Origin: Oceanibaculum nanhaiense
GTDB taxonomy: Bacteria; Pseudomonadota; Alphaproteobacteria; Oceanibaculales; Oceanibaculaceae
Direction: 5' to 3'
Length of the DNA stretch: 64,000 nucleotides
Assembly: GCF_002148795.1 (NCBI RefSeq)
Contig: NZ_MPOB01000006.1
Location: 248,001-312,000, forward strand
Numbering within the stretch: position 1 is the stretch's first letter; every line of letters starts with the position of its first letter. Below the pieces are notes generated by a model. It was not told the DNA's origin and did not search any database. It saw nothing but the letters and a program-made list of their open reading frames with translations. A program made the position numbers and the translations under genes. Shown in pieces: positions 1-21,358 of this stretch.

Positions 1-1452
1 GACCCACATGAAATCCGGGTACATGAATTCCACCACCGGCTTGTAGCGCCCGTCGGCAGCCAGCCCGCCGGCAAGGCCGAGGAAGGCCTGTTCGGCAATC
101 GGCGTGCCCAGCACCCGGCCCGGGAAGGCATCCGCCAGCCCGCGCGTGGCGCCGTTGGTGCCGCCCTTCAGCCGGTGGATATCCTCGCCCATGAGCAGGA
201 TCGACCGATCCTCTTCCATACGCCGGTGCATGACATCGGCCGCCGCATCGACGAATTTCCGCTCGACCAGGCTGCCCTTGTAGCTGTGTTCCTCTGCCGT
301 GCGCCTGCCGGACAGTTCCGACAGATCGCCCCTGATGCCGACATCGCGGAAGCCGGGATCGGGCCAGAGCGACGGCACGATAGACCGCCGGTTGCCGTCC
401 GCCTGGGTCAGGCCGGCGCTGGCCGCCTGCATCGCCGCCACGGCGCGGGCCCGTAAGCCATCCACATCCTTCTGTGTGATCAGCTTGCGGGCGATCATCT
501 CCCGCGCCACCCGGTCCAGCGGATCGCGGGTGCGCCAGTCGGCCTCCTCCTCCTTCGTGCGGTAGCCGAAGGCACTGCCCGGCAGCGGGCCGTTCTGGTG
601 GAAATAGCGATAGACCTCGGCCTCGATGACCGTCGGCCCCTTGCCGGCGCGCATATGGTCCAGCGCCTCGCCCATCGCCAGATGGACAGCCAGCGGGTCC
701 ATGCCATCGACCCGCCAGGCCGGAATGCCAAAGCCCAGCGCCCGGCCCGACAACCGCGCCTCGCGCGTCGATTCGGCAACCGTGGTGGCAACCGCGTAGA
801 GATTATTCTCGATGAAGAAACAGATCGGCAGCGACCAGGCGGCGGCAATGTTCATGGTCTCCAGCACCGCGCCGATATTCACCGCGCCATCGCCGAAATA
901 GACCACCATCACATCACCGGTACCGGCCAGCTTGTGCGCCAGTGCCGCCCCCGCCCCCGGCGGCACGCCGCCGCCGACGATGGCGTTGGTGCCCAGCGCC
1001 CCGGCCGCATCCCAGCGCAGATGCATGGAGCCGCCGCGCCCCTTGCAGTAGCCCGGCGAGAGCCCGAGGATTTCCGCCAGTGTCTTGGTCAGCACCGCCT
1101 GTACCTCGCCCTCGACTGCACCGCGCGGGTCATACCCCTGCGGGCTGACATAGGACAGGGCCTTGGCGAGGAACTGGTGATGGCCGCGATGCGAGCCGCT
1201 GACCTGATCGGTGGCGCGTAGCGGCAGGATGGAGCCGACCGCGCCACCCTCCTGCCCAATGGAGGAATGGGCCGGGCCGTGCACCAGCCCCTCGCCGGCC
1301 AGCACCAGCACCTCCTCCTCGAAGGCACGGATCAGATGCAATTGCGTCAGCAGCGAGCCGAGCAGCGCCGGATCGGCCTTGTCCCAGTCGCGTTTCGTGG
1401 TGCGCAGCGACCGCCAGGGGGCCAGCGGCGAAAGCTCTTCATAATCGGGCAC
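1..1452 (-). CDS. Fused E1 alpha/beta thiamine-dependent 2-oxoacid dehydrogenase (partial, 3' end outside window)
   Basis: The 484 visible codons read without a stop to the window edge. The first ~330 residues are an E1-alpha domain with the thiamine diphosphate motif GDGAVNIG followed by the ENN asparagines; a beta-type transketolase domain then starts (VDAAADVMHRR, GEDIHRLKGG), so alpha and beta are one polypeptide as in branched-chain-type E1 fusions of ~700 residues. Such enzymes decarboxylate a 2-oxoacid and acylate a lipoyl E2. The start is a GTG at 1452 behind a GGGGAGGGG ribosome site; no nearer ATG suits. The gene diverges from the SDR at 1564. The substrate cannot be told, and no E2/E3 gene is in view. 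Confidence 0.85.
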   Translation of the reverse strand, partial: MPDYEELSPLAPWRSLRTTKRDWDKADPALLGSLLTQLHLIRAFEEEVLVLAGEGLVHGPAHSSIGQEGGAVGSILPLRATDQVSGSHRGHHQFLAKALSYVSPQGYDPRGAVEGEVQAVLTKTLAEILGLSPGYCKGRGGSMHLRWDAAGALGTNAIVGGGVPPGAGAALAHKLAGTGDVMVVYFGDGAVNIGAVLETMNIAAAWSLPICFFIENNLYAVATTVAESTREARLSGRALGFGIPAWRVDGMDPLAVHLAMGEALDHMRAGKGPTVIEAEVYRYFHQNGPLPGSAFGYRTKEEEADWRTRDPLDRVAREMIARKLITQKDVDGLRARAVAAMQAASAGLTQADGNRRSIVPSLWPDPGFRDVGIRGDLSELSGRRTAEEHSYKGSLVERKFVDAAADVMHRRMEEDRSILLMGEDIHRLKGGTNGATRGLADAFPGRVLGTPIAEQAFLGLAGGLAADGRYKPVVEFMYPDFMWV

Positions 1453-1563
1453 GGAACCCCTCCCCGTCAGCCGCCGGGCTTTACCGCGCCCGCAGCCGGT
1501 TGCTTAAATCTTTGATTAGCGTGACCTTACGGTCCGGGCTGGTGGGGAACAAGGGGACAGGCC

Positions 1564-2298
1564 ATGATTTCATTCGAGGGCAGGGTGCTGCTGATGAGCG
1601 GTGCCGCCGGCGGCATCGGCCTCGCCACCGCGCAGGTCTTCGCGCGTGCCGGGGCCAGCCTCGCGCTGGGCGATCTGGATGAACAGCGGCTGGCGGAAAT
1701 GTGCGCCGCACTCGGCCTGCCGGAAGATCGCCTGCTGCTGGCCCGCCATGACGTGACCGAGCCGGAAAGTTCGCGGGATCTGGTGCGACAAGCGCAGGAG
1801 AAGTTCGGCGGCGTCGATATCGTGGTGCCGAATGCCGGGCTTTATCCAACCGATCCGTTCGACAGCATGAGTGCGGCAAGCTGGTCGCGGACACTGGCGG
1901 TCAATCTGGATGGGGTGTTTCATCTCTGCCAGGCGGCGCTACCGGTGTTGCGGCCCGACGCCGCGATGGTGCTGGTCGCCTCGATGGCCGCGCATTATGG
2001 CAGCCCGACCCATGCGCATTATGCCGCCGCCAAGGGCGGGGTGCTGTCGCTGGCGAAATCACTGGCGAAGGAGCTGGCGCCGGTGCGGGTGAACGCGGTT
2101 TCCCCCGGCCTGATCGACACGCCGATGGTGCAGCCGCTGATGCAGGCGCGCGGGCCTGAATTGCTGAACGCCACCCCGCTCCGGCGGCTAGGAACGCCGG
2201 AGGAGGTGGCGAACTGCATCGCCTTCCTGGCCAGCCCGCTTTCCAGCTACGTCACCGGGGCGACGCTGCATGTGAATGGCGGGCTGTATATCGCCTAG
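1564..2298 (+). CDS. SDR family NAD(P)-dependent oxidoreductase
   Basis: A 244-aa classical short-chain dehydrogenase. It has the nucleotide-binding glycine motif (SGAAGGIG, residues 12-19), the NAG motif after the fourth strand (VVPNAGLYP), the catalytic Ser140 and the YAAAK motif (Tyr153, Lys157), then the PG motif (VSPGLIDTP) and the C-terminal VTGATLHVNGG signature. The acidic residue at the end of strand 2 (GDLDEQR) favours NAD over NADP. A GGGGACAGG ribosome site precedes the ATG. It is divergent from the E1 gene and the intergenic ~110 bp must hold both promoters. The substrate is unknown. Confidence 0.93.
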   Translation: MISFEGRVLLMSGAAGGIGLATAQVFARAGASLALGDLDEQRLAEMCAALGLPEDRLLLARHDVTEPESSRDLVRQAQEKFGGVDIVVPNAGLYPTDPFDSMSAASWSRTLAVNLDGVFHLCQAALPVLRPDAAMVLVASMAAHYGSPTHAHYAAAKGGVLSLAKSLAKELAPVRVNAVSPGLIDTPMVQPLMQARGPELLNATPLRRLGTPEEVANCIAFLASPLSSYVTGATLHVNGGLYIA

Positions 2299-2317
2299 TA
2301 GTTCTTACTCGGACCGA

Positions 2318-2494
2318 TTACTGGGGCCGGTCGCAGGGGCCGTTGTTCAGCCCTTCATAACTGCCGTCCGCATTGGGATATTCGTACCAGACGACAGAGC
2401 CGTCAGCCGAACATTTGTCGAAGCCGACAAAGCGGCCGCCGCAGGCGCTGAGCACGCCAACGGCAAGAATCACGATGAGAGTGCGTACCAACAT
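2318..2494 (-). CDS. Small lipoprotein, 58 aa
   Basis: A short reading frame of 58 aa with a clear type II signal peptide: a hydrophobic stretch (LIVILAVGV) ends in the lipobox LSAC with the modified Cys at position 18. The mature part is about 40 residues with a CSADGSVVWYEYPNADGSY stretch and a second cysteine near the end. It ends 19 bp after the converging SDR gene. It resembles the small entericidin-sized lipoproteins only in size; no family is recognised. The next gene upstream on the same strand also encodes a lipoprotein, 73 bp away. Confidence 0.7.
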   Translation of the reverse strand: MLVRTLIVILAVGVLSACGGRFVGFDKCSADGSVVWYEYPNADGSYEGLNNGPCDRPQ

Positions 2495-2567
2495 AACTCT
2501 ACCTTTCGCTTGAGGCGGCGCGGGCGCGCCGCCAGATCCGGTTGCGGGGAGGCTCTATCGCGTCAGA

Positions 2568-2975
2568 TCAGAGCTGACGGCCCGCCTCGAAGGTCAGAAG
2601 CTCGACAGAGTTCAGATTGTGGAACTGATAGACCGGGCCGTTCTTATAGACACGCTGACAGTAATCCTCGCCGCCACGGAACAGCTCCCACTTCACGCAG
2701 AACTTGCCGTCCGGGGTGATCTGCCAGTTGCCGTCCTCAATGCCGGTCGGGCGCCGCAGTTCGGCCTTGCCGCCAGGCATCACATACATGGCGTAGGTTG
2801 CGTTGGAACCGCTCATCGTGCCGGTGCCGGTATTGCCGACGACCAGTGCCTGCACATCCGGGGCGGACAGGGCGGGGCCAGTGGGCTCGTCGGGAATAGA
2901 CGGGCCGAGCGGCGCGGGCTGCGTGGCGCAGGCGCCAAGCGCAAGCACGGCGGCGCACAGGATATAGGATTTCAT
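2568..2975 (-). CDS. Putative lipoprotein of 135 aa, DUF995-like C-terminus
   Basis: The N-terminus is a lipoprotein signal (MKSYILCAAVLALGAC, Cys16). A proline-rich linker follows, then a compact domain with the run FCVKWELFRGGEDYCQRVY and YQFHNLNSVE. This layout, a cysteine pair around a tryptophan and a YQF-type strand, recalls the DUF995 family of alphaproteobacterial envelope proteins, although I could not run an alignment. Its 130-bp upstream region contains an AT-rich stretch around 3097-3110. It may share an envelope role with the smaller lipoprotein next to it. Confidence 0.75.
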   Translation of the reverse strand: MKSYILCAAVLALGACATQPAPLGPSIPDEPTGPALSAPDVQALVVGNTGTGTMSGSNATYAMYVMPGGKAELRRPTGIEDGNWQITPDGKFCVKWELFRGGEDYCQRVYKNGPVYQFHNLNSVELLTFEAGRQL

Positions 2976-3106
2976 GGGTCAACTCCCTGATTGGCAGTTC
3001 GGGGGTGTGTCAGCTTCCGGCCATCGCATGGCCTTGCTTGCTCCCCCGTATAACGGGCGCTGCCGTCATACGGTTCCAGGGTACCCTACGCGCTTTCTTA
3101 TATTAT

Positions 3107-5473
3107 TTAACGCTTGTTTATGGACTGCCACACTTTCCCGGCCGTCATCGGAATATCGATGTGCTTGATTCCATAGGGTTTCAGCGCATCCATCACAGCG
3201 TTCATGACCGGCCCCGGCCCGCCGATGGAGGAGACCTCGCCCACGCCCTTCGCCCCGATCAGGCTGTTCGGGCTGGCGGTCGGCGCCCAGCCGAGATCGA
3301 GTGCCGGCACATCGTCGGCGCGCGGCACGGTGTAGTCCATGAAGCTGCCGGACAGCAGCTGGCCGGTTGCAGGATCGTAATGCGCGGCTTCCAGCAACGC
3401 CTCACCGACCGACTGGCCGATGCCGCCGTGCAGCTGGCCCTGCGCCGTCGCCTCGTTGATGACGCGGCCCAGATCGTCGATACCGGTCCAGCGCCGCACA
3501 TCGACCTTGCCGGTATCGGGATCGATCTCGACCTCCACCGCATAGGCGCCGTTCGGGAAGGTCGTGTGCAACCCCTCGAAATCCAGCTGCACGGCGCAGC
3601 CGGTGCCCATCTCGGTATCGCGCGCGCCCTCCGGCAGCGCTTCCCAGCCGGCCGCGACTTCGCCCAGGCTCAGCTTGCGGTCGGTGCCGGCGATGCGGAA
3701 CTCGCCCAGCCCATATTCGATATCCTGCACCGCCGCTTCCAGCATCTGCCCGGCGACCGCGCGGGCCTGGCGGATCAGCTGTTCCGCCGTGCGATGCACC
3801 GTGTTGGCGGCAATCGGCATCAGGTTGGAGCCGCCGGTGCCGCCGCCCTTTGCGAGGAAGTCGCTGTCGCCCTGCTCGACGCGGATGCGCTCGACCTGGA
3901 TTTCCAGCGTCTCGGCGGCGACCATGGCCAGCGCCGTGCGATGCCCCTGCCCGGAATCCTGCGTGCCGCTGCGCACGATGACCGTACCGTCGGGCTGCGC
4001 GATGACCTCGCTGCGCTCCGCGACCGAGCCTCCGGTGGCGTGCAGGTGCAGGGTCAGGCCAAGCCCGCGCCGCAGACCGCGTGCCTCGCTGTCCGCGCGC
4101 CGCGCCGGGAAGCCCTCGACATCGGCGGCCTTCAGGATGCGGTCCAGGACAGCGGGGAAATCGCCGCCATCATAGGTCTCGCCCATCGCGGTCTTGTAGG
4201 GCAGGTCGGCGGGCGTCACCAGATTGCGGCGGCGCAGCTCGATCCGGTCGATGCCCAGACTGTCGGCGGCATAATCGATCAGCCGTTCGGTGGTGGAGAC
4301 CGTCTCCGGCTTGGAGGCGCCGCGATAGGCGTCGGTCGGCACGGTGTTGGTGAACAGCCCCTGCACCCGGTAATAGAGGCCCGGAATCTTGTAGCAATGG
4401 CCGAATACGCGCACCGCGCCCTTGGTGACGATGGTGGCCGCCACATGATTGATATAGGCGCCCATATCGCCCAGCGCGTCGATCCTGAAGGCGAGGAACT
4501 TATAATCCTTGTCCAGCGCCAGCGCCGCCCGGTCCACGCGGCCACGACCCATCGCGTCCGACACCATGCCCTCGGTGCGGCTGGATATCCACTGCACCGG
4601 CCTGCCCGTCGCCTTCGCCGCGACCAGCGCCAGCACCTGTTCCGGATAGGGCCAGATCTTCACCGCGAAGCTGCCGCCGACATCCTCGGTGACGACCCGT
4701 ACCTTGTCGGTACCGACGCCCAGGCAGTCGGCCATGCTGGCGCGGATCGCGACCACACCCTGGCTCGGCGTTGTCAGCGTATAGCGCCCGCTGGCCGGGT
4801 CATACTCGCCCAGCGCGCCGCGCGTCTCGACCGGGGCGATCACGATGCGCGGATGCCGCACCGTCAGCTCCACCACATGGGCGGCTTCCGCGAACAGCCG
4901 CTCGGTCTCCGCGCGGTTACCAATCTCCCAGTCGAGGCTGCGATTGTCCGGCAACTCCGGCCAGACCTTCGGCGCACCGGATTCGGCCGCCTGTTCCAGA
5001 TCGACAATGACCGGCAGCTCATCGAGGTCCAGCACGATGGCTTCCAGCGCGTCCAGCGCCTGATCCTCGGTTTCGGCGATCACGGCGGCGACCGGCTCCC
5101 CGGCATAGCGCACCGCGCCCTCTGCCAGCACCGGACGATGGCGGACCACCATCGGGCTGCCATCGCGGTTCGGCACCTCGCCCGCCACCTTCAGCGGCCC
5201 GATGCCGGCCGCCTTCATATCCTCCGCCGTCAGCACCAGCCGCACGCCCGGCATGGTGCGCGCGGCGTCCACATCCAGCAGCCGGATCGTGCCATGCGCC
5301 AGCGGCGACCTCAGCAATGCCATGGTCAGCATGCCATCGGGCCGGCGATCGGCGACATACCGGCCCTTGCCGGTCAACAGGGCTTCATCTTCGAGACGCA
5401 GCATTCGCTTCACTATTCTGGCTGGGTATGGCTGGAACGGATGGAACAGCGACTTTAGTGTGCAAACCGTCAC
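3107..5473 (-). CDS. Xanthine dehydrogenase family molybdopterin-binding subunit
   Basis: About 788 aa with the two-part molybdenum hydroxylase large-subunit architecture: the a/b hammerhead domain (EDEALLTGKGRY, LLRSPLAHG, GEPVAAVIAETEDQALDA) and the molybdopterin-binding domain, ending in the catalytic glutamate motif GAKGVGEVSSIGGPGPVMNA. It should bind the molybdopterin cytosine dinucleotide cofactor and hydroxylate an aldehyde, heterocycle or similar compound with water as oxygen donor. The iron-sulfur and FAD subunits normally needed for electron transfer are not adjacent. The upstream ATG at 5473 adds ~20 residues to the family start; a GTG giving VKRMLRLEDE is an equally good start. 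Confidence 0.9.
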   Translation of the reverse strand: MTVCTLKSLFHPFQPYPARIVKRMLRLEDEALLTGKGRYVADRRPDGMLTMALLRSPLAHGTIRLLDVDAARTMPGVRLVLTAEDMKAAGIGPLKVAGEVPNRDGSPMVVRHRPVLAEGAVRYAGEPVAAVIAETEDQALDALEAIVLDLDELPVIVDLEQAAESGAPKVWPELPDNRSLDWEIGNRAETERLFAEAAHVVELTVRHPRIVIAPVETRGALGEYDPASGRYTLTTPSQGVVAIRASMADCLGVGTDKVRVVTEDVGGSFAVKIWPYPEQVLALVAAKATGRPVQWISSRTEGMVSDAMGRGRVDRAALALDKDYKFLAFRIDALGDMGAYINHVAATIVTKGAVRVFGHCYKIPGLYYRVQGLFTNTVPTDAYRGASKPETVSTTERLIDYAADSLGIDRIELRRRNLVTPADLPYKTAMGETYDGGDFPAVLDRILKAADVEGFPARRADSEARGLRRGLGLTLHLHATGGSVAERSEVIAQPDGTVIVRSGTQDSGQGHRTALAMVAAETLEIQVERIRVEQGDSDFLAKGGGTGGSNLMPIAANTVHRTAEQLIRQARAVAGQMLEAAVQDIEYGLGEFRIAGTDRKLSLGEVAAGWEALPEGARDTEMGTGCAVQLDFEGLHTTFPNGAYAVEVEIDPDTGKVDVRRWTGIDDLGRVINEATAQGQLHGGIGQSVGEALLEAAHYDPATGQLLSGSFMDYTVPRADDVPALDLGWAPTASPNSLIGAKGVGEVSSIGGPGPVMNAVMDALKPYGIKHIDIPMTAGKVWQSINKR

Positions 5474-5500
5474 GTTTGAACCGTCCGCGTGCGGCCAGCT

Positions 5501-6289
5501 TTATTTTTCGCCGTCCAGCCGCATGACCCAGCCTTCCAGCCCGGAAGCCGCTGCCGGATAGCGCTCAAGCACCATCGGATCGTGACCGGGAATCACATCG
5601 CCATCCGGCCCGGCCAGCGCCTTCACCGCGCGGTGCCCCTCCAGCATGTCGGCGACGTTATAGACGATCGGGAAGGGCCGGCCCTGATCCATGTTGGCGT
5701 AGAAATGCGAGGCATCCGACGCCAGTACCAGCCAGCCGCGCCGCGTGCGCACCCGCACCACCTGCAGCCCCGCCGTATGGCCGCCGACACGATGCACGGA
5801 AACGCCCGGCGCCAGTTCCGACGCGCCGTCATGGAAGCGCACCTGCCCCTCGAACACGCGGCGCACCATCGCCGTCACGTCATCGACCGCGAAAGGCTGG
5901 CTGAGCGCCGGATGGCACATGCAGCGCCCGGTGCAATAGGCCATCTCGCTGTCCTGAAGATGGTAGGTGGCGTTCGGGAACAGGCCGTGATTACCGGCAT
6001 GGTCGTAATGCATATGGGTGATGACCACGTCCGACACGCTCTCCGGCGCGATACCGATGGCTTTCAACCCTTCCGCCGGCGACCTGGTGATGGTGCGGCC
6101 GCGCTTCTTCGCCTCCGTCTCGTCGAAGCCGGTATCGACGATGAAGCTGTGCGTCTCGCCGACGATGGCCCAGACGAAATAATCCAGCGGCATCGGCCCG
6201 TCATGCGGATCGCCGCCGATGAAATTCTCCGACGCCTTGCGCGCATGGTGCGCGTATTTCACCGCATAGACCTTGTATTCTTCCGTCAC
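5501..6289 (-). CDS. N-acyl homoserine lactonase-like MBL fold metallohydrolase
   Basis: A 262-aa metallo-beta-lactamase fold protein. The dizinc motif is THMHYDHAGN, followed by a downstream GGHTAG histidine, SDASHFY aspartate and a final PGHD histidine, the order seen in the AHL lactonase/AttM branch. Members open lactone rings or cleave other esters. The GTG at 6289 is preferred: it has a GGGAGGGAC ribosome site and leaves the intergenic promoter region free, whereas an ATG further upstream would overlap the divergent ATPase gene. Substrate unknown; quorum-quenching activity is only suggested by family. Confidence 0.88.
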   Translation of the reverse strand: MTEEYKVYAVKYAHHARKASENFIGGDPHDGPMPLDYFVWAIVGETHSFIVDTGFDETEAKKRGRTITRSPAEGLKAIGIAPESVSDVVITHMHYDHAGNHGLFPNATYHLQDSEMAYCTGRCMCHPALSQPFAVDDVTAMVRRVFEGQVRFHDGASELAPGVSVHRVGGHTAGLQVVRVRTRRGWLVLASDASHFYANMDQGRPFPIVYNVADMLEGHRAVKALAGPDGDVIPGHDPMVLERYPAAASGLEGWVMRLDGEK

Positions 6290-6379
6290 GCCCTGTCCCT
6301 CCCTGGGTATTTTGCCGCCATTTTGCCAGCAGTGTAGGACAGGATATCGCGGCCCGTGAAATGCTTTGGGTGAAACGCT

Positions 6380-6420
6380 TTGACATCGGTCAAGGTGCCG
6401 GGCCGTCATCGGCCTATAAT
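6380..6420 (+). promoter_or_regulatory. FNR/FixK/Dnr-type box at -41.5 with TATAAT -10
   Basis: Positions 6380-6393 read TTGACATCGGTCAA, a perfect dyad with five-base arms and four-base spacer that matches the TTGAY-N4-RTCAA consensus of Fnr-family activators in alphaproteobacteria. A perfect TATAAT lies at 6415-6420. With a start site about 6428 the dyad centre (6386.5) falls at -41.5, the class II activation position. No good -35 element is otherwise seen. The first gene downstream is the P-type ATPase whose start is at 6447. Confidence 0.72.
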
Positions 6421-6446
6421 CAGCGCGCAACCGACAGGACGTCACC

Positions 6447-9158
6447 GTGACCATGCAGGATGCCGCCACGCCACAGGAAGACCGCCCCTGGCACGCTCTG
6501 GAGCCGGCGGAGGTAATCCGCCGGCTCGACACGACGCCGGACGGGCTTGCCGATATCGAGGCGGAGGAGCGGCTGGCCCGGTCAGGCCCGAACCGCCTGC
6601 CGGCAACCGCCCGGCGCGGACCGCTGATGCGCCTGCTGCTGCAGTTCCACAACCTGCTGATCTATGTGCTGCTGGCCGCCGCGCTGGTCACGCTGCTGCT
6701 CGACCATCTCAGCGACGCGGCGGTCATCCTGGCGGTAGTAATCCTGAACGCCATCATCGGCTTCGTGCAGGAAGGCCGCGCCGAAAAGGCACTGGACGCG
6801 ATCCGCGGCATGATCGATCCGCACGCCACCGTGCTGCGCGACGGCCGGCGGCTGACTGTCTCCGCAGAGCAGATCGTGCCCGGCGACGTCGTGCTGGTGG
6901 AAGCCGGCGACCGCGTACCGGCCGACCTTCGGCTGATCCGCGCGCATGGCCTGAAGATCGACGAGGCGGTGCTGACCGGCGAATCCGTCGCCGCGGACAA
7001 GGCGATACCGCCGGTCGATAACTCTGTCGCCCTGGGCGACCGGCATTCCATGGCCTATTCCGGCACCTTCGTTGCCGCCGGTCAGGGCACCGGCGTTGCG
7101 GTGGCGACCGGCAAGGATACCGAACTGGGTCACATCAGCACCCTGATCGGCACGGTGGAGGTGCTGAAGACCCCGCTGATCCAGCAGATGGACGGGTTCG
7201 CCCGCCATATGACCTATGCCATCCTGGCGGTCTCCGCGGCGGCCTTCCTGTTCGCCTTCTATCTGCAATCCTATTCCGCCGACGACGCCTTCATGATCGT
7301 GGTTGGCCTTGCCGTATCGGCGATCCCCGAGGGGCTGCCGGCGATCATGACCATCACGCTGGCCATCGGGGTGCAGCGCATGGCCACGCGAAACGCCATC
7401 ATCCGCCGGCTGCCGGCGGTGGAGACGCTGGGCTCGGTCTCGATCATCTGCACCGACAAGACCGGCACGCTGACGCGCAACGAGATGATGGCGCAGGCCG
7501 TCGTCACCGCCGGCGGCGAATGCGAGGTCACCGGCGCCGGCTATGGCCCGGTCGGCAGTTTCCGCACCATGGGCAGCGAGATCGATCACCAGCGCCACCC
7601 GCTGCTGATGGAGCTGGTGCGCGCCGCCCTGCTGTGCAACGACGCCGATATCCGCCAGACCAGCGAGGGCTGGCGGGCGGAAGGCGACCCGATGGAGGCG
7701 GCGCTGGTGGTGCTAGCCGCCAAGGCCGGGCTCGATACGGCGCTCATCCGCAAGCAATTGCCGCGCACCGACGAGATCCCGTTCGATGCACAGCACCGCT
7801 TCATGGCGACGCTGCATCACAGCCACGAGGATGGCGGTTTCATCCTGATCAAGGGCGCGCCGGAGGATGTCATCGCGATGTGCGCGCACGAACGCCAAGT
7901 CGACGGCGACCGGCGGCTGAACGCGGCGGCCTGGCACAGCGGTTCGGAGGAGCTGGCGGCGCGCGGCAACCGGGTGCTGGCCTTCGCCATGAAGCCGGCG
8001 CGCCCGGAGCAGCGGAACCTGAATTTCGCCGATGTCGATTCCAACGCCACCCTGCTGGGCCTTGTCGGCTTCATCGATCCGCCGCGCGCCGAGGCGATAC
8101 ACGCCATATCCAGCTGTCACAAGGCCGGCATCCGGGTGGCGATGATCACCGGCGATCATGCCGCCACCGCCCGCGAAATCGCCCGGCAGATCGGCCTGTC
8201 CGACGATCCCCGGCTGCTGACCGGCACCGATATCGACCGGCTGGACGAGGAAGGGCTGATCGCCGCGGCCCGCGATGCCTCGGTCTTCGCGCGCACCACG
8301 CCGGAACACAAGCTGCGGCTGGTCAGCGCCCTGCAGGCAGACGGCCATATTGTGGCGATGACCGGCGACGGGGTGAATGACGCGCCGGCGCTGACCCGCG
8401 CCGATGTCGGCGTGGCGATGGGCCAGAAGGGCAGCGAAGCGGCCAAGGAATCGGCCGGGATGGTGCTGGCCGACGACAATTTCGCCTCCATCGTCGCCGC
8501 CGTGCGTGAGGGCCGCACGGTTTACGACAATCTGATGAAGGTGATTTCCTGGACGCTGCCAACCAATGGCGGCGAGGCGCTGACCATCCTGGGCGCCCTG
8601 GCGCTGGGACTGACGCTGCCGATCACGCCGATACAAATCCTGTGGGTGAACATGGTGACTGCCGTGGCGCTGGGCCTGGCGCTCGCCTTCGAGCCGACCG
8701 AGGACGGCACGATGCGCCGCCCGCCACGCCGCAAGGGCCAGCCGATCCTGACCGGGGAACTGCTCTGGCGCGTGCTGTTTGTGTCGATCCTGTTCGTGGC
8801 CGGTGCCTTCGGCCTGTTCTTCTGGGCCGAATCGCGCGGCCTGCCGGTCGAGCAGTCGCGTACCATCGTGGTGAACGCCATCGTCGCGATGGAAGCCTTC
8901 TACCTGTTCAGCGTGCGCCACACCCACGGCACCGCCTTCACGGCGCGCGGCTTCCTGGGCACGCCCGCCGTGCTGATCGGCATCGCGACAGTGGCGGTGG
9001 CGCAGACCGCCTTCACCTACCTGCCGTTCCTGCAGAATGTGTTCGACACACGCCCGCTGTCGCCGCTCGATGGGGCGGCGGTGATCGGCGTTGGCATTGC
9101 CTTGCTGATCGCAGCCGAGATCGAAAAACGCGTGCGTTTCGCGGTCACCAGGCGATAG
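6447..9158 (+). CDS. P2-type cation-transporting ATPase
   Basis: A 903-aa pump with the N-terminal cation ATPase domain (residues ~10-80), first two membrane helices (~62-105), actuator domain with the LTGES loop, the helix-4 motif IPEGLP typical of Ca2+/Na+-type P2 ATPases, the phosphorylation motif CTDKTGTLT (Asp near 337), the nucleotide-binding KGAPED motif, hinge [11 protein letters not shown] and a six-helix C-terminal domain. It has no heavy-metal-binding cysteine motifs, so calcium, sodium or another hard cation is the likely substrate. GTG 6447 and ATG 6453 are alternative starts. The FNR-like promoter upstream predicts induction without oxygen. Confidence 0.93.
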   Translation: MTMQDAATPQEDRPWHALEPAEVIRRLDTTPDGLADIEAEERLARSGPNRLPATARRGPLMRLLLQFHNLLIYVLLAAALVTLLLDHLSDAAVILAVVILNAIIGFVQEGRAEKALDAIRGMIDPHATVLRDGRRLTVSAEQIVPGDVVLVEAGDRVPADLRLIRAHGLKIDEAVLTGESVAADKAIPPVDNSVALGDRHSMAYSGTFVAAGQGTGVAVATGKDTELGHISTLIGTVEVLKTPLIQQMDGFARHMTYAILAVSAAAFLFAFYLQSYSADDAFMIVVGLAVSAIPEGLPAIMTITLAIGVQRMATRNAIIRRLPAVETLGSVSIICTDKTGTLTRNEMMAQAVVTAGGECEVTGAGYGPVGSFRTMGSEIDHQRHPLLMELVRAALLCNDADIRQTSEGWRAEGDPMEAALVVLAAKAGLDTALIRKQLPRTDEIPFDAQHRFMATLHHSHEDGGFILIKGAPEDVIAMCAHERQVDGDRRLNAAAWHSGSEELAARGNRVLAFAMKPARPEQRNLNFADVDSNATLLGLVGFIDPPRAEAIHAISSCHKAGIRVAMITGDHAATAREIARQIGLSDDPRLLTGTDIDRLDEEGLIAAARDASVFARTTPEHKLRLVSALQADGHIVAMTGDGVNDAPALTRADVGVAMGQKGSEAAKESAGMVLADDNFASIVAAVREGRTVYDNLMKVISWTLPTNGGEALTILGALALGLTLPITPIQILWVNMVTAVALGLALAFEPTEDGTMRRPPRRKGQPILTGELLWRVLFVSILFVAGAFGLFFWAESRGLPVEQSRTIVVNAIVAMEAFYLFSVRHTHGTAFTARGFLGTPAVLIGIATVAVAQTAFTYLPFLQNVFDTRPLSPLDGAAVIGVGIALLIAAEIEKRVRFAVTRR

Positions 9159-9191
9159 GCGGGAGACTGGCCCGAGGCGCCGGAACGGCGG

Positions 9192-9581
9192 TTACTTCTT
9201 CGCCTTGACCGGCTCATTGGTCAGCCCACCTGGCTTCACCAGCATGGTTTCCGCCTCGGCGAGAATCTGGCGGCAGCTGTCCTGCTTGCCCTTCTGGTCG
9301 GCGTCGATGGCGGCCTTCAGCTTGTCGATGGCGCTATCGTCGCTGCTGCGTCCCCCGATCCAGCTGTCACGCGGCATCGCGGCATCGGTGGCGCCCGTCA
9401 CATCCTTCTGGCCCTTGGTGGTGTTCAGCACCACCTTCGCCTTGTCATCGACCATCTGCTGCTCGCCGGATTTCGTCTCGGCGATCAGCTGTCTGGCCCG
9501 ATCGGCGCAGTCCGAAGCGGCGGCGACGCCCGGCAGCAGGCCAAGCCCGATGAGGGCGGCAAACAGGCTGCGTCCATACAT
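9192..9581 (-). CDS. Secreted hypothetical protein, 129 aa
   Basis: A Sec signal peptide (MYGRSLFAALIGLGLLPGVAA) is followed by a mainly alpha-helical, charged domain containing two cysteines (SDCADRARQ near the mature N-terminus and DSCRQILAEAE near the C-terminus), which may form a disulfide. The mature protein is rich in lysine and aspartate and ends VKAKK. It should be periplasmic. The gene converges on the P-type ATPase with a 33-bp gap. No family is recognised. Confidence 0.75.
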   Translation of the reverse strand: MYGRSLFAALIGLGLLPGVAAASDCADRARQLIAETKSGEQQMVDDKAKVVLNTTKGQKDVTGATDAAMPRDSWIGGRSSDDSAIDKLKAAIDADQKGKQDSCRQILAEAETMLVKPGGLTNEPVKAKK

Positions 9582-9673
9582 GATACTTCTCCGGTTGATT
9601 GTTTGGCTCTTGCCCTAACCAACTAGCTGGAGAGGTCCTTGGTTCCCTCGGGAGGTAAAGGAGGCAGGTTGCG

Positions 9674-9877
9674 CTATGGCCTTTCCTGGCCGGAAAACAA
9701 CCCGGCGGCAGCCCGGACGATGGCCCGCCAATAGACCAGCAGTACAAAGCCCAGAAGGATCAGGCCGACGGCGACGAAGCCATTCACGATGTGGAAATCA
9801 TGTGCATCCTCGGCGACGAACAGCCCGGTGAGCATCGCCGACAAGGACAGCACGATTCGAACGATCCAGCCCAGCAT
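9674..9877 (-). CDS. Small two-helix inner-membrane protein, 67 aa
   Basis: A 67-aa protein with two predicted membrane segments: residues ~4-21 (IVRIVLSLSAMLTGLFV) and ~33-49 (GFVAVGLILLGFVLLVY), joined by an acidic, histidine-containing loop (EDAHDFHIVN). The C-terminus is basic and amphipathic. The ATG at 9877 is the one that leaves a proper promoter upstream, where an FNR-like half-conserved box and TATGAT lie. It may thus belong to the anaerobic set. Function unknown. Confidence 0.7.
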   Translation of the reverse strand: MLGWIVRIVLSLSAMLTGLFVAEDAHDFHIVNGFVAVGLILLGFVLLVYWRAIVRAAAGLFSGQERP

Positions 9878-9910
9878 TTCAGTCTCCGTATCGGGTTTCC
9901 GCGACAACCG

Positions 9911-9952
9911 GATCATAGGAGGAAATTTCCAGATTCCATTGCGATGGATCAA
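9911..9952 (-). promoter_or_regulatory. Candidate FNR/FixK-like box and -10 upstream of the 67-aa membrane protein
   Basis: Read on the minus strand, positions 9952-9939 are TTGATCCATCGCAA: the left half is a perfect TTGAT while the right half (GCAA instead of TCAA) has one mismatch. A TATGAT hexamer lies at 9917-9912, placing the box centre about 41 bp ahead of the inferred start, the same geometry as at 6380-6420. The mismatch makes this weaker than the other two boxes. Confidence 0.4.
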
Positions 9953-10032
9953 CCCTTCACCAGCAGCACTTCCGGGCAACGGCACTGAAAGCCCTGAAGC
10001 AGGCCGCCGCCACGCAAGCTGAATGCCGTCCG

Positions 10033-10599
10033 TCAGGGCAATTTTTCCACCACGGGGTTCAGCAATATCCCGCGCCGGGCCGCCATCCGGCCGCCCAGCG
10101 CCTTGAGATCGACCGGTGTCAGCCGCTTCTTGGCCAACGGCATGACCACGGCATTCTCCAGCGCCAGATGCCGGCGCTGCGACGCCGCGAAACGGCACAG
10201 CTCGGCGCGCAGCGACTCGTCCAGCGCCTCATGATGGCCGGCCAAGGCGGCTTTCAGCCCGGCGATGATATGGTCGGCGTGTGCGCCATCCTCGGCATGT
10301 TCGGTGGAGAGCTGCCCCAGCACCGGCTCCAGATGATCGTCCGGCTCGGCGCGGCGGCGCAGCAGCGGAAACAGATCCTGCTCCTCGTCGATCACATGGA
10401 TCGCCATGTCGGTTTCGATATGCGCCAGTACCTCGCGGGCAATGTCCATCTCGAACCGGTGGCGCGCGGCCAGCCGGTCCAGCAGGCTGCACACGACCCG
10501 CTGGCGCAGATGATCGGCCAGGATGAAATCCAGCGGCGAGGCCAGAAGATGCTGCGGCAGGGCCGAGAGGTAGCCCTCCTGACCGGACGGCGCGGTCAT
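10033..10599 (-). CDS. Hemerythrin domain-containing protein in nar operon
   Basis: A 188-aa four-helix protein of the hemerythrin/HHE type. Likely di-iron ligands occur as LADHLRQR (first helix), AIHVIDEEQDLFPLL (second), STEHAEDGAHADH (third) and RRHLALENAVVMPLA (fourth). Proteins of this family bind O2, NO or repair iron centres; placed last in a nitrate reductase operon it probably handles NO or protects iron-sulfur cofactors during denitrification. Its ATG overlaps the stop of the preceding gene by 4 nt (ATGA), so translation should be coupled. Confidence 0.85.
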   Translation of the reverse strand: MTAPSGQEGYLSALPQHLLASPLDFILADHLRQRVVCSLLDRLAARHRFEMDIAREVLAHIETDMAIHVIDEEQDLFPLLRRRAEPDDHLEPVLGQLSTEHAEDGAHADHIIAGLKAALAGHHEALDESLRAELCRFAASQRRHLALENAVVMPLAKKRLTPVDLKALGGRMAARRGILLNPVVEKLP

Positions 10600-10904
10600 G
10601 GCCGGATATTGGCTGCCACCACTGGCGATGTGGATGGCTCCAGCCCCTGCCGCAGGATCGCCTCCAGCGCCGCGAGGCCGGGCTCGTCCGACCGCCCCAT
10701 GATGCCGACGATCTGCAGCCAGCGATCATCGTCGGCATGGTCCATGAAACCGCGCACCATCGCGGCGACATAGTCCGGCGTTTCCAGCCCGGCCGCTTCG
10801 GCCGCCGCCTCAACACGGCTGGCGAGATCCGGGTCCGGCAGCGACTCCAGCGCCGCCGCCGCAACCTCCGGCCGATGCAGATGTGCGATCAGGTCACCGA
10901 ACAT
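10596..10904 (-). CDS. Conserved nar-operon helical protein, 102 aa
   Basis: A 102-aa soluble, alpha-helical protein without signal peptide, cysteines or metal motif. Its sequence is rich in alanine and acidic residues, with paired helices around ETPDYVAAMVRGFMDHADD and WLQIVGIMGRSDEPGLAALE. It lies between the PPIase (15-bp gap) and the hemerythrin gene (4-nt overlap) in a tight operon with narGHJI, so a part in nitrate reductase maturation or NO handling is the contextual guess. I recognise no named domain. Confidence 0.75.
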   Translation of the reverse strand: MFGDLIAHLHRPEVAAAALESLPDPDLASRVEAAAEAAGLETPDYVAAMVRGFMDHADDDRWLQIVGIMGRSDEPGLAALEAILRQGLEPSTSPVVAANIRP

Positions 10905-10919
10905 GATGCGCCCCCTGCC

Positions 10920-11777
10920 CTACTGCACAAGCGGCGTGGCGCTGGCGCCAAGATCGACGCCGGTGATCGACGCCCGGCCCGCCAGGATCGACACATATTG
11001 CGCCGCCGCCCGGCGCCAGACCGACTCCGCCAGATAATCCGCGATCTTCTCGCGCACCGCCTCGAACGGCACCGTGCGTCCGTCGATGCGCCGGTCCAGC
11101 CGGATGACATGCGCGCCATAGGGGGTTTCGACCGGCTCTTCGGTGGTCTCGCCCGGTTCCAGGTGGATCAGCGCCGCCTCGAAGGCGGGCGTGGTGTCGC
11201 CGGGGCCGATCTGGCCCAGCGATCCGCCGACCGCGCCGGACGGGCAATCGGACAGCCCCTTGGCGATCTCGGAGAAGCGGTCCGGTGCCGCCTGCAGTTC
11301 GGCGATGGCGGCGCGCGCCTTTTCCACCGCCCCGGCATAGGCGGCCGTGTCGCGGCTGTCGGCGGCAAACAGGATATGCGCCGCCTCGTACAGCGCCGGG
11401 CTGCGGAACCGCGCCTCGTTCTGCCGGTAATAGCGCCGGTAGCTCTCCTCGTCCGGCACCGGCAGCACCAGTTCGCGTTCCAGCAGCACGCGTTGCGCCG
11501 CCTCCTCCGCCGTTTCGCGCCGTCCATCCTCATCGGTCAGCGGTTCGGCAACGATGTCCAGACGCTCCGCTTCCTGCCGCAGCAATTCGCGGATCGCCAG
11601 CGCCCGCACCGCCTGGTTCCAGGCGATATCGGGATCGCCGGACGGGTGGTTCTGCGCCTCCCGCGCGATGGCCGAGGCGGGAATCTCCACCCCGTTCACC
11701 GTGACCTTGACCGGGGCGAAGCGCCGGCGGGGCGACCCGCCGGGCTTCTGATCGGATTTCTGTTCAGCGATGGTCAT
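10920..11777 (-). CDS. Parvulin-type peptidyl-prolyl cis-trans isomerase of the nar operon
   Basis: A 285-aa protein without signal peptide, so probably cytoplasmic like NifM. An N-terminal helical segment (residues ~20-130) precedes a rotamase domain (~131-245) with the typical strands YEAAHILFAAD, FSEIAKGLSDCPSGAVGGSLG and ETPYGAHVIRLD. It likely assists folding or cofactor insertion of nitrate reductase subunits, because it sits 12 bp after narI and the same pairing is known in other alpha- and betaproteobacterial nar operons. The role of nar-linked parvulins is not firmly established. Confidence 0.88.
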   Translation of the reverse strand: MTIAEQKSDQKPGGSPRRRFAPVKVTVNGVEIPASAIAREAQNHPSGDPDIAWNQAVRALAIRELLRQEAERLDIVAEPLTDEDGRRETAEEAAQRVLLERELVLPVPDEESYRRYYRQNEARFRSPALYEAAHILFAADSRDTAAYAGAVEKARAAIAELQAAPDRFSEIAKGLSDCPSGAVGGSLGQIGPGDTTPAFEAALIHLEPGETTEEPVETPYGAHVIRLDRRIDGRTVPFEAVREKIADYLAESVWRRAAAQYVSILAGRASITGVDLGASATPLVQ

Positions 11778-11789
11778 GCCAGCCTCCCC

Positions 11790-12491
11790 TCAAACCGGAC
11801 GCGCGCCGCCACGGGTGCGCACGATCTGATAGCCCTGCCGGCCGAGATACCAGATCGGGGCGCTCCAGACATGCACCAGGCGGGTGAAGGGGAAGATCAG
11901 GAAGACGGTCATCCCCAACACTAGATGCGCCTTGAAGATCGGATGCACGTCGGCGACATAGGCCGCCGCATCCGGGCGCAGCGTGATGATGCCCTGGGCC
12001 CAGTTCATGAATTTCACCATCTCCTCGCCATCGAGATGGCCGAGCGAGATGAAGATCGTCGCCAGCCCCAGGATCAGCTGGGCATAGAGCAGCAGCAGCA
12101 CGGCGATATCGCTGAAGCTGGAATTGCGGCGGATGCGCGGGTCGAACAACCGGCGGTGGATCAGCAGGCTGAGCCCGATGAAACACGCCACCCCGGCGAT
12201 GCCGCCGACCACGATGGCCAGAATCTGCTTGGCGCCGTGGCTGATGCCGATGGCGTCGAAGATCCAGATCGGCGTCAGCAGACCGCCGGCATGGCCGAGG
12301 AAGATCACCAGGATGCCGACATGAAACAGGTTCGAGCCCCACATCATCTGGCGCCGGCGCAACAGCTGGCTGGAGCCGGTCTTCCAGGAATATTGCTCAC
12401 GGTCGAAGCGGATCAGGCTGCCCAGCAGGAACACGCCGAGGCAGAGATAGGGATACCAGCCGAACAGAATGTGATTAAGCGTCGCTTCCAT
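11790..12491 (-). CDS. narI: Respiratory nitrate reductase gamma subunit NarI
   Basis: A 233-aa integral membrane cytochrome b with five membrane helices, close to the usual ~225. It takes electrons from quinol at the periplasmic side and passes them through two b hemes to NarH. Recognisable features are the start NHILFGWYPYLCLGVFLLGS, FHVGILVIFLGHAGG with a heme-ligand histidine in the second helix, and the last-helix pair LVLGMTVFLIFPFTRLVHVW with further histidines. It follows narJ by 19 bp. Confidence 0.96.
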   Translation of the reverse strand: MEATLNHILFGWYPYLCLGVFLLGSLIRFDREQYSWKTGSSQLLRRRQMMWGSNLFHVGILVIFLGHAGGLLTPIWIFDAIGISHGAKQILAIVVGGIAGVACFIGLSLLIHRRLFDPRIRRNSSFSDIAVLLLLYAQLILGLATIFISLGHLDGEEMVKFMNWAQGIITLRPDAAAYVADVHPIFKAHLVLGMTVFLIFPFTRLVHVWSAPIWYLGRQGYQIVRTRGGARPV

Positions 12492-12510
12492 CGAAGTCTC
12501 TCCCTCTTCC

Positions 12511-13209
12511 TCAGGCCGTCGGGGCGTCCGGGCTGCGCCGGGCGGCGCGGACCTGGGTCTTGATGCGGGTGAGCGAGCAATCGTCGGTCATCTCGCCGGG
12601 GCCGAAGGTGACGGCTGCCTCCTCCCACTCCCGGTCGAGGGCGGCCAGATCGTCCGGCATCACGTCGCTGGCCGCCGCCTCGGCCGCCGCCTTCGGATCG
12701 GCACGCACTGCCGACAGCGCCTCGACCGCCGCGAACAGCGCGGCATAGGGGCTTTCGCGTTTTTCCAACCGCTGCCGGAGAACGGCCAGGATATGCACCG
12801 TCTCGCCCAGCAGCGCCGTCGCCTCGCCGAACGGCAGGGTGGACAGGAACTCCAGGAACAACGGCAGGAAGTCCGGCAGCTCGTTGGCGACGATGAAGAA
12901 GCCGTTCTTGTCGTAGAGCTGCGACAGATCGACCAGCGCCTGCCCACGGTCGCGGCTCTCGCCATGCACATGCTCGAACAGGTGCAGCGACAGGCTGCGC
13001 GAGCGGTCGAACAGCAGGACATAGCGCTCCTGCAGATCATACAGCTCCGCCGTCTCGAAACTGCTGAGCAGCGGCTCCAGCGCCTTCAGTGAAGACCGGG
13101 GCACCAACCCCTCCCCGGTCAACACCGCGCGGATTTCCGGCATGGCGGCAACAAGCTCCGCCGACGGATAGTTCAGCAGGGCGGACAGCGCCTTGAAGCT
13201 TTTCATCAC
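12511..13209 (-). CDS. narJ: Nitrate reductase molybdenum cofactor assembly chaperone NarJ
   Basis: A 232-aa TorD/NarJ-type helical chaperone. It shows the family signature around YVLLFDRSRSLSLHLFEHVHG and a FLPLFLEFLSTLP segment. NarJ binds the NarG N-terminus and allows insertion of the molybdopterin cofactor and FS0 cluster before membrane docking; it is not part of the final enzyme. The start overlaps the narH stop by 4 nt. The C-terminus extends with a charged tail. Confidence 0.95.
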   Translation of the reverse strand: MMKSFKALSALLNYPSAELVAAMPEIRAVLTGEGLVPRSSLKALEPLLSSFETAELYDLQERYVLLFDRSRSLSLHLFEHVHGESRDRGQALVDLSQLYDKNGFFIVANELPDFLPLFLEFLSTLPFGEATALLGETVHILAVLRQRLEKRESPYAALFAAVEALSAVRADPKAAAEAAASDVMPDDLAALDREWEEAAVTFGPGEMTDDCSLTRIKTQVRAARRSPDAPTA

Positions 13210-14732
13210 CGCACCTCCATCGGGGTTTTCACCCTCGCCTTCTGCGGCGCGCCGAACAGGCTGGGGGCGGACTGGCCGTCGGAGCAGCCATTGCCGAAGG
13301 AGAAGCCGCAGCCGCCACGCAGCTGGTGGGCATCCTCGCTGGTCTCGCGATGGGCGGTCGGGATGACGAACCGATCCTCGTAATTGGCGATTGCCATGAT
13401 CTGGTACATATCCTCGATATCGGCACCGGTCAGACCAACCTTCTCGGCCAGCCGCTCGTCGAGCATGCCGTCCACCGTTTTGGCCCGCATGTAGGCGCGC
13501 ATCGCCAGCATGCGCTCAAGGCCGAGCGCGACTGGCGCCTCGTCACCGGCGGTCAGCAGATTTGCCAGATATTTCAGCGGGATGCGCAACGAGCGCACAT
13601 CCGGCATGGCACCATCCACGCCCATCTGCCCGGCCGCTGCAGCCGACTGGATCGGCGATAGCGGCGGCACATACCAGACCATCGGCAGGGTGCGGTATTC
13701 CGGATGCAGCGGGAAGGCGACCTTCCATTCCATCGCCATCTTCCAGATCGGCGAGCGCCGCGCCGCCTCCAGCCAGCTTTCCGGCACGCCATCGGCACGC
13801 GCCTGTTCGATCACCTTCGGATCGTTCGGGTCGAGAAACAGATCGAGCTGGGCCTGATAGAGGTCCTTCTCGTCTGGCACGCTGGCCGCCGCTTCGATAC
13901 CGTCGGCGTCATACAGCAACACGCCGAGATAGCGGATACGCCCGACGCAGGTTTCCGAGCAGACGGTGGGCTGGCCGGCCTCAATGCGCGGGAAGCAGAA
14001 GATGCACTTCTCCGATTTGCCCGTGGACCAGTTGTAATAGACCTTCTTGTAGGGGCAGCCGGAGACGCACATCCGCCAGCCGCGGCACTTGTCCTGGTCG
14101 ATCAGGACGATGCCGTCCTCCTCGCGCTTGTAGATCGCCCCCGACGGGCAGGCCGCAGCACAGGTCGGGTTCAGGCAATGCTCGCACAGGCGCGGCAGGT
14201 ACATCATGAAGGTGTTTTCGAACTGGCCGTAAATCTCCTTCTGGATGCCCTCGAAATTCACATCCTTCGAGCGCTTGGAGAATTCGCCGCCCAGGATTTC
14301 CTCCCAGTTCGGCCCCCATTCGATCTTCTCCATCCGCTCGCCGGAGATCAGCGAGCGCGGCCTCGCCGTCGGCATCGCCTTGGATTCGCCGGCGGTCTGC
14401 AGATGCTCGTAATCGAAGGTGAAGGGTTCGTAGTAATCGTCGATTTCCGGCAGGTCGGGATTGGCGAAAATCTTCGCCAGGATGCGCCATTTCGGCCCGA
14501 TCTTCGGCTCGATCTTGCCGTTGGCCTTGCGCCGCCAGCCGCCGTTCCAGACCTTCTGGTTCTCCCATTGCTTGGGGTAGCCGATGCCGGGCTTGGTCTC
14601 GACATTGTTGAACCAGGCGTATTCCATGCCCTCGCGGCTGGTCCAGACGTTCTTGCAGGTGACCGAGCAGGTGTGACACCCGATGCATTTATCGAGGTTC
14701 AGCACCATGGCTATCTGAGCGCGGATTTTCAT
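13206..14732 (-). CDS. narH: Respiratory nitrate reductase beta subunit NarH
   Basis: A 508-aa electron transfer subunit. Four ferredoxin-type cysteine clusters are visible: CIGCHTCSVTC (residues 16-26), CEHCLNPTCAAACP, CRGWRMCVSGCP and CIFCFPRIEAGQPTVC. The Trp in CRGW replaces a cysteine and marks the [3Fe-4S] site, as in NarH of other bacteria. The subunit relays electrons from NarI hemes to NarG on the cytoplasmic face. It overlaps narG and narJ by 4 nt each. Confidence 0.97.
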   Translation of the reverse strand: MKIRAQIAMVLNLDKCIGCHTCSVTCKNVWTSREGMEYAWFNNVETKPGIGYPKQWENQKVWNGGWRRKANGKIEPKIGPKWRILAKIFANPDLPEIDDYYEPFTFDYEHLQTAGESKAMPTARPRSLISGERMEKIEWGPNWEEILGGEFSKRSKDVNFEGIQKEIYGQFENTFMMYLPRLCEHCLNPTCAAACPSGAIYKREEDGIVLIDQDKCRGWRMCVSGCPYKKVYYNWSTGKSEKCIFCFPRIEAGQPTVCSETCVGRIRYLGVLLYDADGIEAAASVPDEKDLYQAQLDLFLDPNDPKVIEQARADGVPESWLEAARRSPIWKMAMEWKVAFPLHPEYRTLPMVWYVPPLSPIQSAAAAGQMGVDGAMPDVRSLRIPLKYLANLLTAGDEAPVALGLERMLAMRAYMRAKTVDGMLDERLAEKVGLTGADIEDMYQIMAIANYEDRFVIPTAHRETSEDAHQLRGGCGFSFGNGCSDGQSAPSLFGAPQKARVKTPMEVR

Positions 14733-17700
14733 TCTGCCGCCTCCTTGGCGTTGGTGTGGGCCGGAAACGGAGCCATCTCGCCAGCGTCGAGCGGCTGTTC
14801 CAGCCAGTCGACCCGGTCCATCTTGCGCACCACGACGAACTCGTCGCGGTTGCAGCCGACCGTCCCGTAATAGTTGAAGCCATAGGATTGCTGGGCGTAG
14901 CCGCCGATCATGTGGGTCGGCTTCAGCACCGTGCGGGTGACCGAATTATGGATGCCGCCACGCTGGCCGGTGATCTCCGAGCCCGGCGTGTTCACGATCT
15001 TCTCCTGCGCGTGGTACATCAGCACCATGCCGGGATTGACCCGCTGCGACACCACGGCCCGGGCGGTCAGCGCGCCGTTAAGGTTGAACAGCTCGACCCA
15101 GTCATTGTCCTCGATACCGGCCACTTTCGCGTCGGTCTCGCTGAGCCAGATCACCGGCCCGCCGCGATTCAGCGTCAGCATCAGCAGATTGTCGGTATAG
15201 GTCGAGTGGATGCCCCATTTCTGGTGCGGCGTGATGAAGTTCAGCACGATCTCGGTGTTGCCGTTGCTGCGCTTGCCCTTCACCGGCACGATGGTCTTCA
15301 GATCCACCGGCGGCTTCCAGACCACCAGCGCCTCGCCGAAAGCCCGCATCCAGAGATGATCCTGATAGAGCTGCTGGCGGCCGGTCAGCGTGCGCCAGGG
15401 GATCAGCTCATGCACGTTGGTGTAGCCAGCGTTGTAGCAGACCTTCTCGCTCTCCAGCCCCGACCAGGTCGGCGAGGAGATGATCTTGCGCGGCTGCGCC
15501 TGCACGTCGCGGAAGCGGATCTTCTCGTCCTCCTTCGGCAAGGCCAGATGGGTGTGGTCGCGCCCCGTCGCCTTGGACAGCGCCCCCCAGGCCTTCACCG
15601 CGACCTCGCCATTGGTCTCGGGCGCCAGCATCAGGATCACCTCGGCGGCGTCGATGTCGCTCTCGATCCGGGGCATGCCCTGGCTGACCCCGTCCTCCAG
15701 GACGGCGCCGTTCAGTGCCCGCAGCAAATCCACCTCATGCTCGGTGTTCCAGGCGATGCCCTTGCCGCCATTGCCGATCTTGGTCATCAGCGGGCCGAGC
15801 GCGGTGAACTGCTTGTAGAGGTTGGGATAGTCGCGTTCGACCACGGTTACCTGCGGCATCGTCTTGCCGGGGATCGGCTCGACCTCGCCGCGCTTCCAGT
15901 CCTTCACGTCATAGGGCTGGGCCATTTCGCCCGGCGTGTCGTGCAGGATCGGCGTCAGCACAACATCCTTCTCAACGCCCAGCACTTCGGGCGCCACTTC
16001 GGAGAAACTCTTGGCGATGCCGCGATAGATGTCCCAGTCGGAGCGCGATTCCCACACCGGATCGACCGCCGCCGACAGCGGGTGGATGAAGGGATGCATG
16101 TCGGAGGTGTTGAGGTCGTTCTTCTCGTACCAGGTGGCTGTCGGCAGCACGATGTCGGAATAGACGCAAGTCGTGGACATGCGAAAATCCAGCGTCACCA
16201 GCAGGTCCAGCTTGCCTTCCGGCCCGTCCTCGTGCCAGACGACCTCCTGCGGCTTGGCGCGCCCTTCCTGGCCCAGATCCTTGCCCTGCACGCCGTGCTG
16301 CGTGCCCAGCAGGTGCTTCAGGAAATATTCGTGGCCCTTGCCGGAGGAGCCCAGCAGGTTGGAACGCCACACGAACAGGTTGCGCGGCCAGTTCTGCGGA
16401 TCGTCGGGATCGTGGCAGGACAGTTCCAGCTCGCCGTCCTTCAGCCCCTTGGCGATGTAGTCCTTCGGCTCCATCCCCGCCTTCGCGGCCTTGGCCGCGA
16501 TGGTCAGCGGGTTGACCTTGAGCTGTGGCGCGGAGGGCAGCCAGCCCATCCGTTCGGCCCGGACATTGTAGTCGATCATGCTGCCCGACCAGTCGCCCTC
16601 GGGCGCGGTCGGCGACAGGATCTCCCCGACCGACAGGGTCTCGTAGCGCCACTGGTCGCTGTGCGCGTACCAGAACGAGGTCGAGTTCTGCTGACGCGGC
16701 GGCCGGACCCAGTCCAGCCCGAAGGCCAGCGGTTGCCAGCCGGTCTGCGGGCGCAGCTTCTCCTGCCCGACATAATGCGACCAGCCGCCGCCCGACTGGC
16801 CGATACAGCCGCAGAACACCAGCATGTTGATGGCGCCCCGGTAGTTCATGTCCATGTGGTACCAGTGGTTCATCGCGGCGCCGATGATGATCATGGACCG
16901 GCCGGTGGTCTTCTCCGCATTGGTGGCGAATTCGCGCGCGACAGTGATGATGGCGTCGCGCTTCACGCCGGTGATGTTCTCCGCCCAGGCCGGCGTGCCC
17001 GGCACATCGTCGTCATAGCTGGACGCGACATGGTCGCCGCCGAAACCGCGATCGACGCCGTAATTGGCGCACAGCAGATCGAACACGGTGGCAACCTGCG
17101 CCTCGCCATCCTTCAGCGTCAGGCGGCGCACCGGCAGGTTGCGGGGCAGCACCTCGCCATGCTCGGTCTTCACGAAATACTCGCTCGCGCGGCCGCCAAA
17201 ATAAGGGAAGGCGACCGAGGCGATCTCGCTGCCCTCGCCGGAGAGGCTGAGCAGCAGCCGCGTGTCGCGGCCCTTGCCGTCCTTCTCCTCCAGGTTCCAC
17301 TTGCCCTGCTGCTCGCCCCAGCGATAGCCGACGGCGCCGACCGGCGAGACGACCTCCCCGGTGATCTCGTCGATGGCGACGGTCTTCCAGTCCGGATTGC
17401 CGGTCTCGCCGAGCCCGTCCTCGAAATCGGCGGCGCGCAGCAACCGGTCGGCGATCAGTTGGCCGTCCTTCTCGACCAGCTTCACCAGCATCGGCATGTC
17501 GCTGTATTTGCGGACATAGTCCTGGAAATACGGCACCTGCCGGTCGATGTGATATTCGCGCAAGATGACGTGGCCCATCGCCAGCGCCAGCGCCGCGTCG
17601 GTGCCCTGCTTGGCGTTCAGCCAGATATCGGCAAACTTGGTCGCCTCGGCATAGTCGGGCGAGACGACAGCGCTCTTCGTGCCCTTGTAACGCACCTCGG

Positions 17701-18502: not shown

Positions 18503-18532
18503 GGCTATACGCTCCGATCTTTCGTTCGGCGA

Positions 18533-21277: not shown

Positions 21278-21358
21278 GGCTGTCCCCGTATTAGGGTCCG
21301 TGAAATGCGGGAATAAGCTCCGCGCCATGACTAAGCGATAATCAGCCTATGCCCATCT

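Follow-up and report, generated by a model that had tools for sequence, protein, structure and literature searches.

A class II FNR-type promoter in front of a P2-type cation ATPase in Oceanibaculum nanhaiense and its probable control by low oxygen

The DNA analysed here, referred to as the window, is a 64,000 nucleotide stretch of the Oceanibaculum nanhaiense genome (contig NZ_MPOB01000006.1, positions 248,001 to 312,000). A P2-type cation-transporting ATPase of 903 amino acids is encoded on its plus strand at 6447-9158, starting with GTG. All the P2 ATPase domains (PF00690, PF00122, PF13246 and PF00689) were found in this open reading frame, as had been predicted for the gene downstream of the promoter. 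The sequence AGGA at 6436-6439 on the plus strand, 7 nt before the GTG at 6447, is a possible Shine-Dalgarno sequence. Further upstream, also on the plus strand, lies a dyad of the FNR/FixK type, TTGACATCGGTCAA (6380-6393, centre 6386.5), which satisfies all 10 specified positions of the pattern TTGAYNNNNRTCAA, and 21 bp downstream of it is a TATAAT hexamer at 6415-6420. A pattern search of the window returned two exact TTGAYNNNNRTCAA sites, and TATAAT was likewise present twice when both strands were counted; one member of each pair is found in front of the pump gene.

A −10 hexamer conventionally spans −12 to −7, which predicts a transcription start at about 6427. With G6427 as the start the centre of the dyad is at −40.5, and with the alternative purine A6429 it is at −42.5, base 6428 being a C. 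Relative to the predicted start the dyad is centred at approximately −41 (±1), which is a class II geometry, and such a placing of dyad and −10 hexamer is typical of class II activator promoters. The original prediction of an FNR-type dyad and TATAAT at this activator position was borne out, and its "exactly −41.5" was right to within one base, if slightly over-stated. The place of the −35 is occupied by AAGGTG, so that no −35 element is present. A general sigma-70 scan of positions 1-20000 did not list this promoter, which is expected because it has no −35. TTGACA within the dyad was ruled out as a −35 for the TATAAT since the spacing would be 29 bp. The box carries C/G at both fifth positions (TTGAC/GTCAA), which is weaker than TTGAT/ATCAA for FNR, and the −10 hexamer is the best among all boxes of the genome (6/6). 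The pump promoter is thus real, its elements are well formed, and it is most likely functional. We also noticed two abutting 14-bp direct copies at 6356-6383, GTGAAATGCTTTGG and GTGAAACGCTTTGA, which are alike in 12 of 14 positions and run into the FNR dyad; they may have arisen by a small duplication or form a second regulator site. A repeat search of the intergenic region found nothing at the settings used.

The pump shares the P2 fold and the catalytic motifs with LMCA1 and the SERCA- and PMR1-type Ca2+-ATPases. However, it scored below the curated NCBIfam cut-offs of both the PMR1-type model TIGR01522 (619 vs 798 bits) and the SERCA-type model TIGR01116 (591 vs 703 bits). The PEGLP motif of TM4 and the N..E of TM5 are retained. 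In TM6 the HMMER alignment places an Ala in the pump (NMVTA) where LMCA1 has an Asp (NLVND); the corresponding acidic TM6 residue of SERCA is D800. Nearly all orthologues read have Ala, Thr or Ser at this position, with Ser in the Pseudomonas aeruginosa orthologue, and Asp is rare in the subfamily. The cation and the stoichiometry of this subfamily may therefore differ from those of Ca2+ pumps. The description of the pump as "Ca2+/Na+-like" is not established by these comparisons, and Ca2+, plausible as a substrate by analogy with the precedents described below, should not be assumed. The pump was absent from the three congeneric genomes examined and its nearest orthologue (68% identity) belongs to another family, pointing to horizontal acquisition or to repeated loss of the gene.

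The whole genome contained 19 exact boxes as compared to 3 matches to the reversed control pattern. Hexamers resembling a −10 element (at least 4 of 6 matches, with A2 and T6) were counted downstream of these boxes in both orientations, 38 in total, and were found at gaps of 21 and 22 bp in 3 and 5 cases, respectively. The other gaps between 8 and 40 bp mostly gave 0 to 2, apart from gap 17 (n = 4) and gap 33 (n = 3). The open reading frames adjoining the boxes encode HemN (TIGR00538, above the curated cut-off), FnrL itself, three universal stress proteins, Hsp20, a CBS protein, an acetoacetyl-CoA reductase-like SDR, a PAS protein, DUF2189 and DsbD_2 membrane proteins, a thymidine/AMP phosphorylase-like protein, an SQR-like flavoprotein and a SigZ-like sigma factor. 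This gene set looks like a low-oxygen FnrL regulon. With its P2 pump, Hsp20, CBS protein and three universal stress proteins the set is also akin in make-up to the mycobacterial DosR regulon.

Orthologues of the pump were obtained from 80 named genome contigs, from 385 genomes of the class, 50 of which contained the pump, and from named plasmids. The scan of upstream regions of homologous ATPases, proposed as a check of the original prediction, identified a box with at least 9 of 10 matches within 300 bp of the start in 17 of the 57 alphaproteobacterial orthologues, three of the 17 being from one genus. In 200 dinucleotide shuffles the mean was 1.08 and the maximum 4, and the reversed pattern gave 0. 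The bins further upstream contained boxes in 4/55, 0/55, 2/53 and 0/26 cases, and the first 300 bp differed from the next 900 bp with p = 4e-7 (Fisher). Upstream of rpoB, used as a control, a box was present in 1/30. Among the orthologues from outside the Alphaproteobacteria there was no clear excess within 300 bp (9/60, against a shuffle mean of 3.4 and a maximum of 10). The closest orthologue (L111, 68%) carries TTGATCCTGGTCAG, and the boxes of two others (L123 and L150) are followed by TACTAT at gap 22 and by TATGAT at gap 21, respectively. No recognisable box was found within 300 bp in 40 of the 57 alphaproteobacterial orthologues, including the 60-66% identical L112-L114 and L116-L119, and control by the box therefore appears to have arisen or disappeared more than once. 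With tblastn, relatives of the universal stress proteins or Hsp20 were located in the vicinity of no more than 8 of the 129 orthologue loci, so that there is no fixed operon.

On a plasmid record of P. aeruginosa, an orthologue with 54% identity to the window pump over 893 amino acids is located directly upstream of lasR, rsaL and lasI. In the P. aeruginosa reference strain the position next to lasR is that of PA1429, and from this neighbour we infer that the orthologue is PA1429. It displays TTGAGACAGGTCAA 73 bp before its start, followed at a 22-bp gap by GATAGT. This gene and the window pump have in common an FNR-type box with a −10 hexamer upstream, the PEGLP motif in TM4 and the lack of the TM6 Asp. 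They differ in that the former belongs to a Gammaproteobacterium, adjoins lasR and is not in the vicinity of nar, and has one mismatch in its box. PA1429 has been reported as an Anr-regulated gene (PMC8575079), and is included in an Anr-related list (PMC8087004); a connection with calcium homeostasis has also been described (PMC5770612). With a footprint in roughly a third of the alphaproteobacterial orthologues, FNR/Anr control of the pump appears to extend from P. aeruginosa to the Alphaproteobacteria.

Cases that are comparable by their description are known from other bacteria. CtpF of Mycobacterium tuberculosis is a calcium P2 pump of the DosR regulon whose expression is raised by hypoxia and by NO (PMC9180918, PMC3573892). 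Like the window pump it is a P2 ATPase with a PEGL motif and is set among a stress-protein regulon, but its regulator is the DosR two-component system and not a member of the FNR family. The cation ATPases RHLb6066 and RHLb6068 of Rhizobium leguminosarum are upregulated 6- to 30-fold in bacteroids (PMC6421345). These alphaproteobacterial ATPases are clustered with universal stress proteins and HspF; unlike for the window pump, no FixK/FNR site is shown for them. In the paper of Dufour et al. 2010 on alphaproteobacterial FNR, FixK and DNR regulators (PMC2908626), calcium, magnesium and E1-E2 are not mentioned, and no P-type ATPase was found apart from the heavy-metal pump of the cbb3 cluster. 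Oxygen control of such P2 pumps is recurrent and known in kind, and the view of it as unusual does not stand against PA1429/Anr and CtpF/DosR; the present finding is sound but largely expected.

The genome encodes three clear CRP/FNR proteins, two of which have an ExxSR recognition helix. One is FnrL (C7:66100-66894), with the CX2CX7C motif and a further Cys; its best profile match is NF045989 FnrL, yet below the cut-off (172 vs 300 bits). The other is an FtrB-type regulator in the window at 21525-22220 on the plus strand, whose helix is MTPENLSRAF and which has no Fe-S cysteine cluster. ExxSR helices fit TTGAY half-sites, and judging from the half-sites of the pump box either protein could bind it. 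The original prediction had chosen the gene at 21525 and had connected the pump to the change to nitrate respiration. An FtrB/NarR-like protein encoded next to nar would make the pump respond to nitrate, nitrite or NO and not to oxygen. Besides the fit of its helix, this alternative has in its favour the 12 kb distance between pump and nar and the TTGAC/GTCAA half-sites, which also occur in some Dnr/NNR sites. The second exact dyad of the window, TTGACTCAGATCAA (21359-21372, plus strand), is of the same type and lies between narK and the 21525 gene; in the direction of this gene it is followed by AATAAT after 22 bp. We nevertheless consider control of the pump by the 21525 protein unlikely. 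The narG gene was present in 11 of the 50 class genomes with the pump and in 50 of the 335 without it (p = 0.21), which is not significant. Only 4 of the 14 class genomes with a boxed pump contained narG, and several boxed pumps were in genomes devoid of it. The classic FnrL targets hemN and fnrL itself carry boxes and Anr controls the P. aeruginosa orthologue, and because of this FnrL, with its intact cysteine motif, is a likelier regulator than the 21525 protein. That pump and nar are close together is best explained by chance or by a common control through oxygen. Thus, of the predicted oxygen- or NO-controlled expression, the oxygen part is upheld by the class II FNR site, the footprint in orthologues and the Anr-regulated orthologue, while the tie to nitrate is not supported.

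Chance could also have brought dyad and TATAAT together, with the pump being constitutive or under other control. About three exact boxes per genome are expected from the reversed pattern, and most close orthologues lack a box. That one of only two boxes in the window should be spaced for class II activation from one of only two TATAAT hexamers, with a start codon close behind, and that a footprint should recur in orthologues and in P. aeruginosa, makes this explanation highly improbable. More improbable still is that the box mainly serves the divergent gene for a metallo-beta-lactamase-fold protein (5501-6292, minus strand): the box, being a palindrome, can work in either direction, and its distance to the start of that gene is 90 bp, but no −10-like hexamer was found on the minus strand at gaps of 19 to 25 bp, in contrast to the perfect one on the plus strand.

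The preferred reading, activation of the pump by FnrL at low oxygen, to which we assign a probability of about 0.8, may be depicted as follows: The pump gene would have a class II, activator-dependent promoter of the sigma-70 type, in which the dyad takes the place of the −35 and the consensus TATAAT serves as the −10. At low oxygen an FNR-family activator, most likely the bacterium's own [4Fe-4S] FnrL, would dimerise and bind to 6380-6393, and its contact with RNA polymerase would switch on the P2 ATPase. The pump would then be a member of an FnrL low-oxygen and stress regulon together with hemN, the universal stress proteins, Hsp20, the CBS protein and FnrL itself. As the counterpart of the Anr-controlled PA1429 it might help to maintain cation gradients under limited respiration. 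A wider and more tentative proposal, which we hold to be somewhat doubtful, is that a widespread bacterial subfamily of P2 pumps without the TM6 Asp is a standing part of low-oxygen regulons (FNR/Anr/FixK) along with universal stress proteins, Hsp20 and CBS proteins. Such a set might be the proteobacterial counterpart of the hypoxia set under DosR, and the cation might be moved to hold the ion balance as the proton motive force falls. The promoter in front of the pump offers a clean test case for the question why a shortage of oxygen leads cells to produce a cation pump.

Some further features were noticed in the nar neighbourhood and at other FNR boxes. In NarK (18533-21328, 931 amino acids) two MFS transporter halves are fused. 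The exact box at 21359 is only 30 bp before the annotated start of narK, which may therefore be placed too far upstream. Between the pump and nar, at 10033-10599, a hemerythrin-domain protein is encoded that is weakly similar to the RIC/YtfE family of iron-sulphur repair proteins. Finally, two near-duplicate loci (L172 and L175; G000:C8:137278 and C18:2994) each contain a heavy-metal P-type ATPase that is followed after a short distance by an FNR box, and behind each of these boxes a small protein is encoded that looks secreted.
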